From Lachnospiraceae bacterium (lineage in GTDB: Bacteria; Bacillota_A; Clostridia; Lachnospirales; Lachnospiraceae), in NCBI GenBank assembly GCA_017620055.1, contig JAFZRD010000142.1:1-11541 (forward strand): a stretch of DNA of 11,541 nt, written 5' to 3'. A program made the translations under genes and the position numbers. Shown here piece after piece: positions 1,916 through 11,541 of the stretch (position 1 is its first letter; each line of letters begins with the position of its first letter). Under the pieces are notes generated by a model that did not search any database, was not told the origin of the DNA, and saw only the letters and a list, made by a program, of their open reading frames with translations.

Positions 1916-1944
1916 TTGACCTTAACAAATAAACCGTTTATAAT
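1916..1944 (+). promoter_or_regulatory. hipBA promoter (TTGACC-17-TATAAT) with palindromic operator candidate
   Basis: -35 TTGACC (1916-1921), a 17-nt spacer and a perfect -10 TATAAT (1939-1944) form a near-consensus sigma-A promoter. In-frame TTG at 1916 is therefore the -35 box and not a start codon. A 13-bp palindrome ATAAAC-C-GTTTAT (1929-1941) lies in the spacer and overlaps the first half of the -10, a typical place for an autorepressor site. HipB-family proteins are known to repress their own operon, so this is the best candidate HipB operator. Its sequence is unlike the E. coli HipB site. Predicted transcription start is about 1950-1952. Confidence 0.75.
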
Positions 1945-1951
1945 AATATAC

Positions 1952-2311
1952 ATGAAAAAGAAATCTGATAATTTAGATAGAGTGAATGCTCCTGTAAACG
2001 GCTCTAAACCCAGGAAATCCAACAAGGCAGTTGTCATGCCTAAAACGATCAGGCAACTTGAGACTGTCGGTGAACAGATCCGCCTTGCCAGACTCAGACG
2101 GAAGTATTCAGTAAATCTGATAGCCGAAAGAGCCGGAATCAGTCGCGCAACTCTTTGGAAGGTTGAGAAAGGAGATCCCGGAGTAGCAATAGGCATATAT
2201 GCCAAAGTTCTTGCGGCCATAGGTTTGCCAAACGATATCACGCTACTTGCCAGGGACGATGAACTGGGAAGGATAATACAGGATTCAGAGCTGTTGAATA
2301 AAAGAAAATGA
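1952..2311 (+). CDS. hipB: HipB-like antitoxin / Xre-family repressor
   Basis: A 119-residue helix-turn-helix protein of the HipB type. The HTH_3 domain spans about residues 39-95: VGEQIRLARLRRKYSV, then LIAERAGISRATLWKVEKG as turn and recognition helix, then VAIGIYAKVLAAIGL. The tail ARDDELGRIIQDSEL is characteristic of antitoxins paired with HipA. It should bind operator DNA as a dimer, neutralise HipA and repress the operon. Start is uncertain: ATG at 1952 coincides with the predicted transcription start (a leaderless reading). ATG at 2036 has a fair Shine-Dalgarno (AAGGCAG 2024-2030, 5-nt spacing) and gives the more usual 91 residues. The coordinates are the longest ATG reading the promoter allows; the extra 28 residues are K/N-rich and look unstructured. 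It overlaps hipA by 4 nt (ATGA), implying translational coupling. Confidence 0.88.
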   Translation: MKKKSDNLDRVNAPVNGSKPRKSNKAVVMPKTIRQLETVGEQIRLARLRRKYSVNLIAERAGISRATLWKVEKGDPGVAIGIYAKVLAAIGLPNDITLLARDDELGRIIQDSELLNKRK

Positions 2312-3537
2312 TCAATTCATTTGAAGTTCATGCCGGATGGTTAAACGATCCGGAACGTATTGGAGTATGTTATATTGAACGGTCAAGAGGAAACGAGGTA
2401 ATATCGTTTTCTTTTGATGAGTCTTGGCTTTCAAGATATCCCGGTTTTATCATGGATCCGGATATATCTGCTGCTCCGGGGAGGCAATATCCGTCGGCTG
2501 ATAAGCCTTGCTTCGGCTTCCTGAGTGATACCGCCCCTGACAGATGGGGACGGAAACTGATGATGCGACGGGAAAGCATCGAAGCCAAAGAACAAAACCG
2601 TCCGCGCAGGACTCTTATGGAAAGTGATTATATTCTTGGGGTAAATGATCCCGGACGTATTGGCGCATTGAGATATTATGATCCTGAGAATGATGTTTAT
2701 ATGTCTGATCGAAGCATTATGGCTGCTCCGCCTATCGAAAAATTAAGGGATCTTGAAAATGCTTCGTTAAAGATGGAAGATAATAATGAAGAAGCAAGAT
2801 GGGTTAAAAACCTTGTGGATCCCGGATCATCTCTTGGCGGTGCCCGACCGAAGGCTAACGTTATAGATGAAAAAGGTAATCTTTGGATCGCTAAATTCCC
2901 TTCGAAGAATGATGAGACAGATATCGGTGCGTGGGAAATGACTGCCCATGAACTTGCTGTTAAATGCGGACTTAAGGTTCCTGAAGCCCGTGTAATGAAA
3001 CTGTCCTCGTACGGAAGTACTTTTTTATCCAAACGGTTTGACAGGAATAAAGATGCGCGAATTCATTTTGCCTCTGCAATGACAATGCTGGGACAGACTG
3101 ATGATTCCGACGATGATATCAGCTATGTGGATATAGCTTCGATCATAGAAGAGATATGCATCCACCCCGAAGAGGACCTTCGCGAATTATGGAACAGAAT
3201 GATTTTTAATATTCTTATATCTAATACGGATGATCATCTGAGAAATCACGGATTTGTATTGCTTGAATCGGGATGGTCGCTGTCCCCGGGGTACGATATT
3301 AATCCGGGTGTTGATAAAGAGGAGTTGGCATTGGCTATTATGAATAGCCATGCAAAGGATACTCATGAAGCCATCGAAGCGGCGCCTTTTTTCAGGCTGA
3401 CAGTTGTTGAAGCAAATGATCGTTTAAAGAAAATGAAAGATATAATTGAGAAGAACTGGAGATATGAAGCTTCACGTTTTGGAATCTCCAGATCAGAACA
3501 GGATCATATGGCGGGAAAAATGGATGTATCAGCATAA
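2308..3537 (+). CDS. hipA: HipA-family serine/threonine kinase toxin
   Basis: A 409-residue HipA kinase. Characterised HipA toxins phosphorylate aminoacyl-tRNA synthetases (GltX in E. coli; others in relatives), causing growth arrest and persistence; the target here cannot be told from sequence. The N-terminal subdomain covers about 1-140, with the family motif CFGFLSDTAPDRWGRKL (68-84). Kinase core: loop SLGGARPKANV (175-185), where S175 aligns with the E. coli autophosphorylation site S150; ATP-binding lysine in IAKFPS (K196); catalytic NTDDHLRN (306-313, D308 matching E. coli D309); metal-binding D330 in SPGYDIN. All key residues are present, so it should be active. Its start overlaps the hipB stop (ATGA), with no strong Shine-Dalgarno. 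By eye it is more AT-rich than rnr or the right-hand genes, consistent with transfer. Confidence 0.93.
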   Translation: MINSFEVHAGWLNDPERIGVCYIERSRGNEVISFSFDESWLSRYPGFIMDPDISAAPGRQYPSADKPCFGFLSDTAPDRWGRKLMMRRESIEAKEQNRPRRTLMESDYILGVNDPGRIGALRYYDPENDVYMSDRSIMAAPPIEKLRDLENASLKMEDNNEEARWVKNLVDPGSSLGGARPKANVIDEKGNLWIAKFPSKNDETDIGAWEMTAHELAVKCGLKVPEARVMKLSSYGSTFLSKRFDRNKDARIHFASAMTMLGQTDDSDDDISYVDIASIIEEICIHPEEDLRELWNRMIFNILISNTDDHLRNHGFVLLESGWSLSPGYDINPGVDKEELALAIMNSHAKDTHEAIEAAPFFRLTVVEANDRLKKMKDIIEKNWRYEASRFGISRSEQDHMAGKMDVSA

Positions 3538-6193: not shown

Positions 6194-9100
6194 TTATCTG
6201 AGTATTCTGTGGGCGATGTTCCTGAGCATATGATTGACGATTCCGTAGTCACGCGTCAGTGACTGCGGGAGCGTAGGTATGCGGTCGTAGAGGATCTCGT
6301 TGTATTCATCCGCAACATCATCAAGGTTCATGATCTCAAGCCCGAGCACACACGAATCCCTGTGCCTTGAATATGTTATCGAAGTAGTGAAGCATGACAG
6401 CTTCACTTTTTCATTTTCGGACGCAAGTTCGACTTCGGTACGGTCCCCTATACGGAATCCTTCTGCCTCGTCCATGAACACCTTCAGATTATGGGATGTC
6501 ATGTAAGTCGTGATGCCCTCGCATGACCTGCCGTCCGCATCATCCTCGACCCGGATCGTAACGGGCTCGGCATCGATCACCGTAACGTCATCGCTCTCAC
6601 CGTCCCTTCCGTCGATAAGGAACACCGACATAACAAGGAAATATGTGTTCCTTATAAGCCAGAACAGCAGCACGAACAGACCTACCGCCTTTATCACGGT
6701 CAGTATGTATATCGACCGAATTATACCGAACGTGCACAGTGCGATCAGGATCAGGAACGGCATCATCGAATGCAGGTCTGTCCTTCGCTTCATGTTCTTC
6801 TTGGATTTGTCCGTGACCTCGAAAACGGAAGTCGTGATACCGAACGTTTCCTTGATTACAGGGATCAGAAGATGAGGCATAACGCTCGTCTCGTATATAC
6901 CGCTCCATTTGAGCGACACGGCGTTGCCGGAAAATACCCTCAGCGCAACGTCCTGCATTATGAACATCGGCAGCCAATACATGAGAAGATCTAGCCATCC
7001 GCACTTGAACACGGGGATCGCAAAGCAAGCGAAGAACAGCGGTGATATGAGATATATCAGGTTCTTCAGGGACGAATACCAGTAGACGACGGAACTTAAG
7101 TATGACAGCTTCTGCATGAACGAAAGGCCTTTGCGGCGTATGAGATGAAGCTGTTTGCCGGTACTGATGACACCGCGCCCCCAGCGCTTTCTCTGCTGGA
7201 TATGTTCCTTGTATGTACTCGGGGTCATTCCGGATGCAAGCGGTTCGGGTGTTGCAAGACTTACATATCCCGCGGACTCTATTAGCATTCCGGTCGCAAA
7301 ATCCTCGGTGATGGATCCGGTATAGAATCCCCCGATCGCATCGAGCGCCTCGCGCGCTATGACTGTGTTGGAGCCGCCGTATATAACGGAATTCGAACTC
7401 GTTTTGGAAACCTCGATAGTGCGGTAGAAGAAGTCCTGCTCGTTCGGCGCGGTCTTCTCGGAATAGAGCGCATACTGGAACACATCGGGAGTATAGAAGC
7501 ACTGCGGCGTCTGCAGAAGCCCCAGAGTGATCTTCTTATCGTCGGGAAGCTTTTCGGACCTCTTCTTCGCATCGATAAAATACGGGATCGTCTTCATCAG
7601 GAAACAGCTCCTCGGTACCATATCCGCATCGAGCGTTACGACATACGGCGACGAGGTCAGCCCGAGCGCGTGGTTGAGATTGCCGGCCTTGGCTCCCTTG
7701 TTGTCGGGACGGTCAAAATAACCGACATGCATCTGTTCGGCGAGCTTCTTCATCTCGGGCCGTCTGTTGTCATCGCACAGCCATATGTGCACTTTATTCT
7801 TATCGGGATACTTGAGATGATTACATCCGTTTATCGTCTTGCGCAAAAGATCGCACGGCTCGTTGTATGTCGCGATGAAGATGTCGACATCCGGGTATTC
7901 GTCATCGGCTATATCCGGAAGCGGATGCTTGCGAAGCCCCATGAGATTCCTGTACAGGATCAGCGACTCGAAGAATCCGAGTATCTCAACCGCAAGCAGC
8001 AGAAGGTTTCCGGTCACGGCAAGCCACCCCGCCTTTACGGGGACCGAAAATCGTATGCGCCAGATTATATACATCAGCGTAAAGAATACGCTCACTATGA
8101 TCACGGTTCGCTGGAGTAGGATCCTGCCCCTGTCGGAGGATGCGTCAAGTTCCTCTTTGCTGTAGATATCATCGTAAGTATGGTAGTGCCTTGTCCTCCT
8201 CGATGAAGCGGCCATCGCGATAACGGTGCAGATCGTTACAAAAAGGACGGTGGCAACTGCAATAAGAGGCCATGCTTTTGCAACATCAAGATCCTCGGTC
8301 TGCAGTATCTTTAAGAAGAACGCAGTCACTTCGGACATACCCTGATCGGAAGGTATGTTAATGTTACGCGGGTCCTCGCCTTTAAGAAGAGACGAAACCC
8401 ATCTTCCAGCACGCGATATATCTTTGGCCTCGATCGGCTGCGGAGGCTGGTATGAGGGCAGCAGGAGAGCCGATGACTCGTTCTTGTTAGAAAGGCTCCA
8501 TATTGCATAACTGGTGTTATTTTCTTCGAGGAGTGAAAACCACGAAGCGGCTGATTCAAAGTCAAGATTGCCGGTCCCGCTCAACTCCGAAAGGCCGCAT
8601 TCCGAGACGAAGATAGGCAGACCCATCTCGCGCGCGGATGAATACTCGCGGCGCAGATCGTCCTTGTGCGTTGCGGCATAGAAATGCAGCGTGTACATGA
8701 TGTTATCGTATTTGATGGAATTACGTGCGGCGGAAATGAGATTTTTACAATAGTTGGGTGTCCCTATAAGGATAACGCTTCCTGGGCTGTTTGCTCTTAT
8801 AACGGGTATGACATCGTACGCATAGTTGCGGATGTCCGACCACGTTGTTTCGCCGTTCGGCTCGTTGCATATCTCGTATATTATGTTGGGACAGTCACCG
8901 TATTTGGATGTTATCTTCTCAAACAGGTCGATCGCTTTGTCTTTGTGGGTGTTGGGATCGGGATCCTCGAGTATGTGCCAGTCGACGATAACGTACATAT
9001 CGGCCTCGATCGCATCGTCAATGGCCCGCTGTGCCACCTCAAGGCTGTTCTGTTTATCCCTGATATACTCGTCGGAATAGATCGGAACGCGGATCAGATT

Positions 9101-9364
9101 GGCATTCCAGTCCTTGGATACCTGCATGAAAATGTCATCATCGACGAATTCGGGAAACCACGTGACTCCGTGCAGACTGACTCCGTGCAGGACGACCTTG
9201 TTTCCGGCCGCATCGCGGAGGTTCGCCGCATCTACATGAAGCTGTCCGTTCACGGAAGGCCTTGCAAGGACGGCATCTCCTCCCTTGGCATAAACATCGG
9301 TGTTTAACGTAAGTACCGCCGCGGCCGCGAAAATCGCGACGGTCAGGGCTTTGATACGAGACAT
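6194..9364 (-). CDS. GH5_2 endoglucanase fused to cellulose-synthase-type GT2 with PilZ-like tail
   Basis: 1056 residues in one chain. A signal peptide (1-26, ending VYA) leads to a GH5 subfamily 2-like domain (about 35-330) very close to Bacillus endoglucanases: VVLHGVSLHGVTWF, VIVDWHIL, acid/base E168 in NEPNG, nucleophile E255 in FVSECG, HFYAATH, IWSLSNK. A membrane segment (about 362-386) and two more (417-436, 447-470) lead to the cytoplasmic GT2 domain. Its BcsA-type motifs are DDN (531-533), DAD (579-581), TED (686-688) and QRKRW (724-728). Further TM segments follow, and gating loop FEVTDK (848-853) matches BcsA FxVTxK. Residues about 930-1015 are PilZ-like but lack RxxxR and DxSxxG. 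Likely role: synthesis and export of a cellulose-like beta-glucan with a tethered outer-surface hydrolase. The start at 9364 was chosen for a Shine-Dalgarno 8 nt upstream; starts at 9370 or 9418 are possible. Polymer identity is unproven. Confidence 0.92.
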   Translation of the reverse strand: MSRIKALTVAIFAAAAVLTLNTDVYAKGGDAVLARPSVNGQLHVDAANLRDAAGNKVVLHGVSLHGVTWFPEFVDDDIFMQVSKDWNANLIRVPIYSDEYIRDKQNSLEVAQRAIDDAIEADMYVIVDWHILEDPDPNTHKDKAIDLFEKITSKYGDCPNIIYEICNEPNGETTWSDIRNYAYDVIPVIRANSPGSVILIGTPNYCKNLISAARNSIKYDNIMYTLHFYAATHKDDLRREYSSAREMGLPIFVSECGLSELSGTGNLDFESAASWFSLLEENNTSYAIWSLSNKNESSALLLPSYQPPQPIEAKDISRAGRWVSSLLKGEDPRNINIPSDQGMSEVTAFFLKILQTEDLDVAKAWPLIAVATVLFVTICTVIAMAASSRRTRHYHTYDDIYSKEELDASSDRGRILLQRTVIIVSVFFTLMYIIWRIRFSVPVKAGWLAVTGNLLLLAVEILGFFESLILYRNLMGLRKHPLPDIADDEYPDVDIFIATYNEPCDLLRKTINGCNHLKYPDKNKVHIWLCDDNRRPEMKKLAEQMHVGYFDRPDNKGAKAGNLNHALGLTSSPYVVTLDADMVPRSCFLMKTIPYFIDAKKRSEKLPDDKKITLGLLQTPQCFYTPDVFQYALYSEKTAPNEQDFFYRTIEVSKTSSNSVIYGGSNTVIAREALDAIGGFYTGSITEDFATGMLIESAGYVSLATPEPLASGMTPSTYKEHIQQRKRWGRGVISTGKQLHLIRRKGLSFMQKLSYLSSVVYWYSSLKNLIYLISPLFFACFAIPVFKCGWLDLLMYWLPMFIMQDVALRVFSGNAVSLKWSGIYETSVMPHLLIPVIKETFGITTSVFEVTDKSKKNMKRRTDLHSMMPFLILIALCTFGIIRSIYILTVIKAVGLFVLLFWLIRNTYFLVMSVFLIDGRDGESDDVTVIDAEPVTIRVEDDADGRSCEGITTYMTSHNLKVFMDEAEGFRIGDRTEVELASENEKVKLSCFTTSITYSRHRDSCVLGLEIMNLDDVADEYNEILYDRIPTLPQSLTRDYGIVNHMLRNIAHRILR

Positions 9365-9388: not shown

Positions 9389-9418
9389 ATTATACTCGCA
9401 AACCTCGCGAAATAACAA
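9389..9418 (-). promoter_or_regulatory. Promoter of the GH5-GT2 gene (TTGTTA-18-TATAAT)
   Basis: Read on the minus strand, a perfect -10 TATAAT (9394 down to 9389) is preceded by an 18-nt spacer and TTGTTA (9418 down to 9413, 4 of 6 matches to TTGACA). The predicted start is near 9382, giving a short leader that contains the ribosome binding site. A small inverted repeat AACAA-TTAT-TTGTT (9414-9427) overlaps this -35 and lies between the two divergent promoters; it is a weak operator candidate. Confidence 0.6.
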
Positions 9419-9466: not shown

Positions 9467-9510
9467 AAAATCATTAATATGAATCTTTTGGAAAGGTGGG
9501 TACACTAAAC

Positions 9511-10470
9511 ATGACAGAGAAGCAGTTTAATAAAGGTGACGTGATCTTCCGTGAGGCTGATATGGGAGATACCCTGTATCAGATAATCGACGGTACCGTA
9601 GGTATATTTGCGGCATACGGCGAGAGTGATCAGCAGCTTCTTGTTGAACTCGGCAAGGGCAAGTTCTTTGGCGAGATGGCAGTTATCGAGGCATATCCGA
9701 GAAGCGCGACGGCAGTTGCGAATTCAGATGTGAAGGTTCTCGAGATCGGATGCGGCGAAGTCAGTGAGTACTTCAAGTCCGAACCTGACCGCATCATGGA
9801 TATCATGAAGAGCCTTGGCGACCGTCTCCGCGATCTTACGGTTGATTACAGCGAAGTCAGTGCCACCATCAAAGAGCTCGGCGTTAGCGAAGGTCAGGAG
9901 AAGAGTGCGGGTCTTCTTGAGAAGATCAAGAAGTTCGCGGGCGTTTACAAGAAGAGCAAGAACGCAGACGCCATCAGCCAGGAAGCACTCCGCAAGATCT
10001 CACAGAAGGGTCATGCCGACGGATATACAACAAAGGTTGAGAAGTACAAAAAGGGAACCGTGATCTTCAAGGAAGGCGAGACCGGCGACTGCATGTACGA
10101 TATCCATTTCGGAACAGTCGGTATCTACAAGGGATACGGCACATCGGAAGAGAAGCTCCTTGCAAAGCTTTCAACGGATGAGTTCTTCGGTGAGCTCGGA
10201 ATGATCGAGAATGTCAAGAGAAGCGGAACCGCAGTTGTCCTTGATGACGATACGACTCTTGAGATAATCACTCCTTCGGATCTTACGAATCTGTTCTCAC
10301 AGAATCCTCCCAAGGTTGAGATGATCCTCGAGCATGTATCATACAGACTCAGGAAGCTCACCAAGGAATACATGGCAGCCTGCAGCCTTGTCAGCAAAGT
10401 TGCGGACGGCAATGACGGTGATGACGTGAAGAATGCGGTAAAGGGATATACACAGAACCTTTACGACTGA
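9511..10470 (+). CDS. Tandem cyclic-nucleotide-binding-domain protein
   Basis: 319 residues made of two CRP/PKA-regulatory-type CNB domains: about 1-115 and 175-290, joined by a lysine-rich helical linker. The halves are clearly duplicated: KGDVIFREADMGDTLYQIIDGTVGI (9-33) aligns with KGTVIFKEGETGDCMYDIHFGTVGI (181-205). Phosphate-binding cassettes are FFGEMA...PRSAT (52-67; E55, R64) and FFGELG...KRSGT (225-240; E228, R237). The glutamate and arginine that contact the cyclic phosphate and ribose in CRP are kept in both. There is no DNA-binding domain, signal peptide or membrane segment, so it is probably a cytosolic cNMP reader acting through protein contacts, like PKA regulatory subunits. 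ATG 9511 is preferred over GTG 9496 because the AGGTGG site (9494-9499) overlaps the latter. It is divergent from the glucan synthase, with a cyclase gene 85 nt downstream. Confidence 0.9.
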   Translation: MTEKQFNKGDVIFREADMGDTLYQIIDGTVGIFAAYGESDQQLLVELGKGKFFGEMAVIEAYPRSATAVANSDVKVLEIGCGEVSEYFKSEPDRIMDIMKSLGDRLRDLTVDYSEVSATIKELGVSEGQEKSAGLLEKIKKFAGVYKKSKNADAISQEALRKISQKGHADGYTTKVEKYKKGTVIFKEGETGDCMYDIHFGTVGIYKGYGTSEEKLLAKLSTDEFFGELGMIENVKRSGTAVVLDDDTTLEIITPSDLTNLFSQNPPKVEMILEHVSYRLRKLTKEYMAACSLVSKVADGNDGDDVKNAVKGYTQNLYD

Positions 10471-10501
10471 TCAGGAATTTGATAGGTTATGATTTTCGAT
10501 G

Positions 10502-10527
10502 CAGCCTGCTCTTTTGAGAGCGGGCTG
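10502..10527 (+). other. Hairpin between CNB gene and cyclase gene
   Basis: CAGCCTGCTCT (10502-10512) pairs with AGAGCGGGCTG (10517-10527) over 11 bp with one G-U and loop TTTG. The following bases are TATTGGAG, not a U-tract. It looks more like an attenuating or RNA-stabilising hairpin within an operon than a full terminator. The downstream cyclase has no clear promoter of its own in the remaining 28 nt. Confidence 0.55.
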
Positions 10528-10555
10528 TATTGGAGAATAAGGAAAGTCAGGACAG

Positions 10556-11541
10556 ATGGGAAGCAGCGATCCGGAAATAACAAGACCCGATAATGATGTG
10601 GATGAGTCCATAGAAGTGATCAGGAGCAGGATACTTTCAGATATTACGGAAGGCATCATGCTGATCGGGTTCAACGGGTTCATAATGTATGCGAACGCGA
10701 CCGCATCGAAGATCCTCGGAATCCCCGAGGATGAGATGATGGGGCATAGTTTTGCGTCGCTGTTTTTTGACAAACCGGAGAATGACGAATTCTCACAGGC
10801 GGTCATCGAGAGCATCTACGACAGGGAGAGACCGCATGACAACATACTGACATATACAACGAAGGAGAAATCTCTGACGCTTCGTATGAAGACGTCTTTC
10901 TATATAGACGGCGTTGAGCGCAAAGGTATAATCGCCGTGTTCTCGGATGTGACCGAGTTCATGGAACTGCAGGATGCCGTCAAGTCGATGAAGAAGATAC
11001 AGGCACTCAATGACAAGCTCGAACTTCGCAACAAGCTTATATCTGAAACGTTCGGACGGTTCCTGTCGGATGAGATAGTCAAGAAGCTCCTTGATACGCC
11101 CGACGGTCTCAAACTCGGTGGAGAGAAGCGTACGCTCACTATCATGATGAGCGATCTGCGCGGGTTCACGGCATTATCCGAGAGACTCGATGCGGGTGAC
11201 CTTATCAAACTCCTCAATCATTATCTTGAGGAGATGACCGGCGCGATCCAGAAGTATGGCGGAACGATAATCGAATTTATCGGTGACGGGATACTCGCGA
11301 TATACGGTGCTCCCGATTACTTTGAGGATCATGCGGCAAGGGCTGTTGCGGCCGCGATCGAGATGCAGTCGAGGATGCCTGATATCAACAAATGGAATGA
11401 GAAGAAGGGATACCCGCCTCTTGAGATGGGGATAGGTATCAACACCGGCGAAGTGATCGTCGGAAATATAGGTTCCGAGAAGAGGACCAAGTACGGAGTG
11501 GCAGGCGCCGCAGTCAATATGTGCGGAAGGATCGAGAGCTA
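10556..11541 (+). CDS. PAS-domain class III nucleotidyl cyclase (3' end outside window)
   Basis: 328 codons are visible and the frame is open to the right edge. A PAS domain (about 22-135: GIMLIGFNGFIMYANATASKILG ... GIIAVFSDVTEF) is followed by a coiled coil (about 137-162), the segment FGRFLSDEIVKKLL (166-179) and a class III cyclase homology domain from about 188. Metal-binding aspartates are D200 (MSDLRGFT) and D244 (FIGDG); transition-state residues N321 and R325 (VNMCGR) are present. Substrate-specifying positions are unusual: E240 where adenylyl cyclases have Lys, and G314 where Asp or Thr is usual. It could thus make cGMP or have relaxed specificity; I call it nucleotidyl cyclase for that reason. 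No TM segment is seen, so it is cytosolic. Start: in-frame TAA at 10538, then only ATG 10556, with AAGGAAAG (10539-10546) upstream. It probably supplies the ligand for the preceding CNB protein. Confidence 0.92.
   Translation, partial: MGSSDPEITRPDNDVDESIEVIRSRILSDITEGIMLIGFNGFIMYANATASKILGIPEDEMMGHSFASLFFDKPENDEFSQAVIESIYDRERPHDNILTYTTKEKSLTLRMKTSFYIDGVERKGIIAVFSDVTEFMELQDAVKSMKKIQALNDKLELRNKLISETFGRFLSDEIVKKLLDTPDGLKLGGEKRTLTIMMSDLRGFTALSERLDAGDLIKLLNHYLEEMTGAIQKYGGTIIEFIGDGILAIYGAPDYFEDHAARAVAAAIEMQSRMPDINKWNEKKGYPPLEMGIGINTGEVIVGNIGSEKRTKYGVAGAAVNMCGRIES

Follow-up and report, generated by a model that had tools for sequence, protein, structure and literature searches.

The 11,541 nucleotides of Lachnospiraceae DNA analysed here (contig JAFZRD010000142.1; the whole stretch is called the window below) carry on the minus strand, at 6194-9364, a gene that is confirmed to join a BcsA-like GT2 synthase and a Cel5A-type GH5 domain in one polypeptide chain. 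The protein is probably a self-contained, single-gene beta-glucan synthase with an endo-beta-1,4-glucanase in cis that trims the enzyme's own chain. A wider proposition, which we hold only tentatively, is that the family constitutes a portable one-gene pathway for a length-controlled beta-1,4-glucan (a cello-oligosaccharide or short soluble glucan). Such a pathway would be free of partner genes and of control by cyclic diguanosine monophosphate (c-di-GMP) and would keep an endoglucanase of its own where the channel opens. It would have passed horizontally between herbivore-gut bacteria, monoderm as well as diderm, from three phyla, and some of their genomes would carry it beside an acetylated-cellulose-type operon.

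One gene for two enzymes

The gene is a single stop-free frame that translates, in the window, into 1056 residues. A GGGAGG sequence lies 8 bases 5' of the ATG at 9364, and a second in-frame ATG lies two codons 5' of the same ATG. The parts of the gene and its upstream site are:

6194..9364, minus strand: whole fusion gene, 1056 residues, with signal-like N-terminus, GH5, transmembrane (TM), GT2 and PilZ-like parts
9287..9364, minus strand: probable signal peptide, about residues 1-26, a hydrophobic N-terminus with its end placed by eye
8372..9265, minus strand: GH5 domain, residues 34-331, Cel5A fold
8861..8863, minus strand: E168, acid/base glutamate of the NEP motif
8600..8602, minus strand: E255, nucleophile glutamate
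8291..8371, minus strand: linker, residues 332-358
8186..8290, minus strand: TM1, residues 359-393, read as running from outside to inside
7940..8131, minus strand: TM2 and TM3, residues 412-475
7151..7912, minus strand: GT2 catalytic core, residues 485-738
7769..7774, minus strand: DD 531-532, within DDN 531-533
7622..7630, minus strand: DAD 579-581
7301..7309, minus strand: TED 686-688, with D688 the putative catalytic base by analogy with BcsA
7181..7195, minus strand: QRKRW 724-728
6611..7075, minus strand: four further TM helices and an interface helix, residues 764-918
6806..6823, minus strand: gating-loop motif FEVTDK 848-853
6197..6610, minus strand: PilZ-like beta-barrel and C-terminal helices, residues 919-1056, c-di-GMP motifs absent
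9389..9418, minus strand: promoter-like site upstream of the fusion gene, TTGTTA-18-TATAAT, matching at 10 of 12 positions

Pfam assigns Cellulase (PF00150) to residues 51-295 with an E value of 2.4e-54, GT2 families within 491-779, and Cellulose_synt (PF03552) to 677-823; it calls neither PilZ on residues 919-1056, nor a carbohydrate-binding module, nor a GH17 domain in the window protein. The best NCBIfam model, TIGR03030 (CelA), matches residues 413-996 with 345.2 bits and does not reach its cut-off of 699.

Two overlapping sets of relatives were compiled. A search of about 5.8 billion proteins, in which 7992 candidates were scored, returned 1368 matches, and the best 120 together with the window protein form a homolog set of 121; PF00150 and GT2 domains occur together in all 120 of these listed homologs, which are 846-1110 residues long. 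Scanning one genome per species turned up 123 relatives; the best 80 of these, together with the window, make up a loci set of 81 rows. The fusion is a single open frame of at least 1042 residues in 77 of the 80 loci, the exceptions being an interrupted copy (L069) and two cut by contig ends (L082 and L100), and its carriers include the strain-named, isolate-like Butyrivibrio LC3010, XPD2002, NC2002 and AC2005, Pseudobutyrivibrio MD2005 and Oribacterium C9. The one-chain architecture that an earlier note on this DNA had read from the frame is thus borne out, and a frameshift or stop codon between the two parts is excluded by the single frames of the other loci. An assembly error or frameshift joining two genes was likewise rejected, and its probability is negligible: nothing was found in its favour, every listed homolog has both domains, and Butyrivibrio XPD2002, Oribacterium C9 and Pseudobutyrivibrio MD2005 are among the strain-named records at the loci.

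Both active sites are conserved

Position 168 is glutamate in all 120 members of the homolog set with a letter there. At position 255 each of the 121 has glutamate, and none lacks the GT2 aspartates, QxxRW or FxVTxK. In the loci set all 80 rows that have a letter there keep both glutamates, and all 81 rows keep the GT2 residues. All the residues that the earlier note had named (E168, E255, DDN, DAD, TED, QRKRW and FEVTDK) stand where it had placed them.

The GH5 domain has the conserved R, H, NE, HxY, E and W residues and the fold of GH5, and its closest relatives by both sequence and fold are Cel5A-type endoglucanases: it is 38-42% identical to the structures 3pzu, 1a3h and 6gjf and shares their fold and active-site residues. 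A CcsZ-like origin of the domain was considered and rejected, since the Cel5A-type structure 6gjf matches with 260 bits against 47 bits for CcsZ (6uje), a member of GH5_25. A cysteine after the nucleophile (C256) was also rejected as a hallmark of fused GH5 domains, as 8 of 17 stand-alone GH5 domains have cysteine there and 5 of 31 fused domains have serine.

Membrane topology

Three membrane spans, an odd number, separate GH5 from GT2, which sets GH5 outside and GT2 inside. Helix count therefore supports a predicted arrangement with the hydrolase at the outer face and the synthase in the cytosol, as the earlier note had it, and does not return the two domains on one side of the membrane. A hydrophobic N-terminal stretch is found in 114 of the 118 homologs with at least 15 residues ahead of GH5. 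The stretch from G329 to W365 is 37-41 residues long in 118 of the 121 homologs and in 70 of the 81 loci rows, and the mean identity of the linker sequence in the loci set is 24%.

The PilZ-like barrel

The proteins were scored for the PilZ motifs RxxxR and [DN]xSxxG, including by one loose pattern that requires them in order. The loose pattern occurs in 118 of 120 unfused relatives (those listed) versus 2 of 121 fused proteins; restricted to the C-terminal part, it is absent from all 121 fused proteins and from all 81 rows of the loci set. The motifs are likewise missing at the aligned positions in all 121 fused homologs and all 81 loci rows, with an isolated [DN]xSxxG-like string near the aligned position in three of the 121. 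As read from its sequence, the PilZ-like barrel has lost both c-di-GMP motifs while the barrel itself is retained, and we infer that the fused enzyme would ignore c-di-GMP. GGDEF domains were found in all ten fusion-bearing genomes examined, with 18 to 53 matches each, so that the signal is probably present in those hosts; this survey covered only genomes of the window's genus or family.

Distribution and origin

By record title, the best 80 loci divide into 73 from Bacillota, 4 from Actinomycetota and 3 from Fibrobacterota. A herbivore host or gut site is named in 18 of the 80 titles, and 35 more bear RUG or RUI names, which we take to be rumen series; 53 of 80 thus point to herbivore guts, and 27 are unclassed.

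A quick tree of the 80 fused copies, the window and four unfused synthases, with branches assessed by the Shimodaira-Hasegawa-like approximate likelihood ratio test (SH-aLRT) alone, puts the fused copies on one side of a branch with support of 100. The three Fibrobacteraceae rows form one clade, and the tree requires nine changes for Lachnospiraceae, four for Erysipelotrichaceae, three for Oscillospiraceae and two for Atopobiaceae. This suggests that the fusion gene may have moved horizontally among families, with the proviso that ranks are taken from submitters' titles and that a bin may contain contigs from elsewhere. For the Fibrobacter copies, mis-binning is considered unlikely: in the genus of L103, a locus titled Fibrobacter succinogenes, a full-length match is present in 21 of 80 genomes (three of them already in the loci set) and a match in pieces in two more, and one copy sits past position 705,000 on its contig. 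One genome of this genus (G463, contig C2) holds, besides a full-length fusion, a second, partial GT2-side match to residues 644-1055 at 52% identity. Fibrobacter has a periplasm, and the earlier note's rationale that tethering answers the lack of one in a Gram-positive cell is weakened by these matches.

Among relatives of the genome of L073, titled uncultured actinobacterium, 5 of 60 have a full-length match and two (G549 and G540) have pieces; L073 and L078, the latter titled Atopobiaceae, have flanking genes in common by eye. Within the window's own genus, 7 of 37 genomes show a full-length match, another shows it as two contig pieces, and in two the C-terminal end alone is matched; 397 genomes drawn from the family yielded two full-length matches and one in two pieces. 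The copy counts of the family and Fibrobacter-genus searches are lower bounds, as at most two candidates per genome were scored in the former and at most nine in the latter. In locus L040 (Butyrivibrio FCS014, at 6236-7886), a transposase-like open reading frame (ORF), identified by eye, splits a short N-terminus-like piece from the rest, a natural disruption at the 5' end.

The two domains appear to share their history. Fused GH5 domains (31 of the 81) form one clade against 17 stand-alone GH5 domains, and the same 31 fused GT2 domains form one clade against 20 of the 120 unfused GT2 domains, each with SH-aLRT support of 100; GH5 and GT2 distances are correlated over 78 sequences (Pearson 0.79, Spearman 0.68). 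The simplest reading is that a single fusion event was followed by common inheritance of both domains.

Comparison with known systems

The closest precedent for the fusion is the GH17-GT2 'Orphan' of pseudomonads, in which a hydrolase is joined to a BcsA-like GT2 (PMC10237404). As far as the available extracts of that account go, the Orphan/NdvB BcsA-like proteins likewise carry a signal peptide, an extracytoplasmic TIM-barrel glycosidase, TM helices and a cytosolic BcsA-like GT2 in one chain, and c-di-GMP motifs are not present. They differ in that their glycosidase is GH17 rather than GH5, with beta-1,3-glucan as the proposed product, in that the PilZ domain is missing where the fusion described here keeps a degenerate PilZ-like barrel, and in their hosts (PMC10237404).

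The ccsZABHI acetylated-cellulose locus similarly combines a BcsA-like GT2 in Clostridia with a GH5 endoglucanase partner, but there CcsZ is a separate GH5_25 protein, the genes lie beside an O-acetylation pair (MBOAT/DHHW), and the PilZ domain of CcsA is given as a predicted c-di-GMP binder, according to the extracts available (PMC7710045). In the published bcs locus with a GH5, as excerpted, the GH5 is again a separate gene. RiGT2 of Romboutsia ilealis resembles the synthase part in having seven predicted TM helices (TMH2-8 of BcsA), the FxVTxK gate and no bcsB gene beside it, and differs in that its excerpted description reports no hydrolase domain and the RxxxR and NxSxxG letters are retained (PMC10374906). 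Its product is a mixed-linkage glucan, and the PilZ domain is needed although no c-di-GMP effect or binding was seen, within the same extracts (PMC10374906).

BcsA with BcsZ shares the GT2 motifs, the TM channel, the interface helix and a PilZ-like fold; the fusion is 24% identical to BcsA over the structural match, falls below the CelA cut-off, has no c-di-GMP motifs and carries its hydrolase in cis. The Cel5A-type endoglucanases 3pzu, 1a3h and 6gjf, for their part, are known from structures of the catalytic domain alone, with no synthase attached.

The earlier note had held that hydrolase and synthase are separate proteins in known cellulose systems, which agrees with the accounts of BcsZ (a GH8 enzyme) and CcsZ so far as these were available; the Orphan precedent (PMC10237404, as excerpted) is a correction to it. 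The kind of protein, a hydrolase with a BcsA-like GT2, is therefore known from the Orphans. Among the papers that searches of the open-licence PubMed Central literature brought up, preprints lying outside this scope, no title or abstract opening described a GH5-GT2 fusion. New, as far as these searches reach, are the GH5 version, the motif-free but retained barrel, and the spread over three phyla, mainly in records from herbivore guts.

Proposed mechanism and alternatives

In the proposed mechanism, the cytosolic GT2 domain would add glucose from uridine diphosphate glucose to a glucan with beta-1,4 linkages, either cellulose-like or of mixed linkage, and push it out through a seven-helix channel. 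The GH5 domain, held outside by TM1 and the short linker, would cut the emerging chain near the channel mouth, and cutting would release a trimmed glucan and limit chain length or aggregation. The PilZ-like barrel would be kept as a structural part that no longer reads c-di-GMP. The division of labour, with GT2 making and exporting and GH5 cutting, is proposed because both sites are intact, helix count sets the domains on opposite sides, the linker is short, the domains are co-inherited, and the Orphans, as the extracts describe them, offer an analogy (PMC10237404).

Several observations weigh against this reading. The G329-W365 stretch lies outside 37-41 residues in 11 of the 81 loci rows, and TM1 falls under the hydropathy threshold in two of them; residues 386-415 contain six basic and six acidic residues, so that charge alone leaves the topology unsettled, and the predicted structure of the fusion has a predicted template modelling score of 0.64. 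In place of the QTPH and FCGS of BcsA, the window GT2 has QTPQ and YGGS, and together with a score of 345 bits, under the CelA cut-off of 699, this means that the polymer may not be cellulose. By first-match counts, 106 of the 121 fused proteins and 70 of the 120 unfused ones have QTPQ, and every protein of both groups has [IV]YGGS; this comparison of fused with unfused proteins yielded no sequence rule that tells the product. The gene is also patchy, as the few full-length matches per genus and family searched indicate, and is sometimes interrupted or in pieces (L040, L069, G391, G536, G540 and G549).

GH5 enzymes are retaining and able to transglycosylate, which favours the main rival, namely that the GH5 domain is mainly a transglycosylase that remodels, cyclises or grafts the nascent glucan. 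Such a role was proposed for the GH17 domain of the Orphans, a family with the same layout in the extracts available (PMC10237404), but the GH5 domain is nearest in sequence and fold to Cel5A-type endoglucanases, and this alternative is considered unlikely. Two independent activities, a membrane-anchored cellulase for plant glucan and a synthase that merely shares its chain, would fit the many carriers that live amid plant fibre and the commonness in related genomes of GH5 relatives lacking the GT2 part. This explanation is unlikely: linker length is nearly constant, each domain tree unites the fused copies in one clade, the fusion occurs in three phyla, both sites are intact in all readable copies of the two sets, and Pfam detects no carbohydrate-binding module.

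It could also be that GH5 is a brake that keeps surface glucan low and yields little free product; to go by the title of a Salmonella paper (PMC5070118), BcsZ reportedly holds back biofilm phenotypes through a block on cellulose production. Being covalent and 1:1, the tether would presumably keep such a brake on at all times, however, and nothing favours braking over the release of trimmed chains, so that a brake seems very unlikely. Synthesis followed by trimming in cis is accordingly preferred.

Gene neighbourhood and an unfused sister synthase

Neighbours were surveyed over 80 loci and 814 ORFs, including the 80 fusions, taking ORFs of at least 80 residues by an overlap rule, and many flanks were short. 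No neighbour family is constant over the 80 loci, the commonest, an ABC ATPase cluster, occurring in 13. Nor is there a constant regulatory neighbour: of the 80 loci, 6 have cyclase relatives close to the fusion, 5 have relatives of the cyclic-nucleotide-binding protein, 10 have relatives of the histidine kinase of the window, which belongs to a large family, and 7 and 6 have members of two STAS clusters. None of these counts is high enough to support a claim. The window holds no BcsB-, BcsZ- or BcsC-like gene, and Pfam found no separate CcsZ or MBOAT/DHHW pair among the eight window proteins scanned. The promoter-like site listed above is one of three in the region, where 4.5 are expected by chance, and such sites are thus not above chance.

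Divergent from the fusion, 9496-11539 encodes a protein with two cyclic-nucleotide-binding stretches and then a PAS-adenylate/guanylate cyclase that is cut by the window end; L031, L049 and a small number of further loci have relatives of these close to the fusion. In L054 (Butyrivibrio LC3010) a partner-switch module at 7678-9281 consists of a STAS-APH gene within about 10 bases after the fusion and then an RsbW-like ATPase, an arrangement shared by L067 and L093, with Pfam run on L054 only.

An unfused synthase adjoins an AlgX/DHHW-like gene, by eye, in all five genomes concerned (G010, G033, G023, G013 and G037) and lies behind MBOAT, CotH, DUF4956 and VTC genes in all four loci that reach that far, one VTC gene being cut by a contig end; this annotation is by eye, with Pfam on L122 only. 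These neighbours include the MBOAT/DHHW pair that serves O-acetylation at the ccs locus (PMC7710045), and the unfused synthase, unlike the fusion, thus belongs to an operon with O-acetylation genes. Four of the genomes (G010, G033, G023 and G037) hold both the fusion, in two contig pieces in G037, and the unfused synthase. With the whole fusion as query, no separate GH5 match was found in the five genomes at an E value of 0.001. A different GT2-PilZ protein of 1116 residues is encoded at 562-3912 of L009; its N-terminus weakly matches a Gram-positive pilin type, and it has additional hydrophobic stretches. Its gene stands beside a VTC-like gene, by eye, and perhaps represents another outward domain fused to a related synthase. 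The check on family spread that the earlier note had suggested did turn up homologs and a spread, while the PilZ-like barrel, the variable neighbours, the unfused sister operon and the three phyla had escaped that note.

Elsewhere in the window, the end of an RNase R-like protein with RNB/S1 domains (2-742), smpB (904-1374) and, directly after it, a transfer-messenger RNA gene with the tag ADNSYAFAA (1500-1846) make up an ordinary trans-translation cluster. A helix-turn-helix gene and a HipA-like kinase gene in tandem (1916-3537) form a HipBA-type toxin-antitoxin pair by Pfam.

Significance

The presence of a cellulase in cellulose-making systems, from bacterial BcsZ to plant KORRIGAN, is an old puzzle. 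Because the fusion fixes both enzymes 1:1 in one chain, a point mutation in either site would test it directly. The family also presents a BcsA-like synthase without c-di-GMP motifs in GGDEF-rich hosts, beside unfused relatives that keep the motifs, and it suggests that some fibre-digesting gut bacteria may make and cut a beta-glucan of their own.

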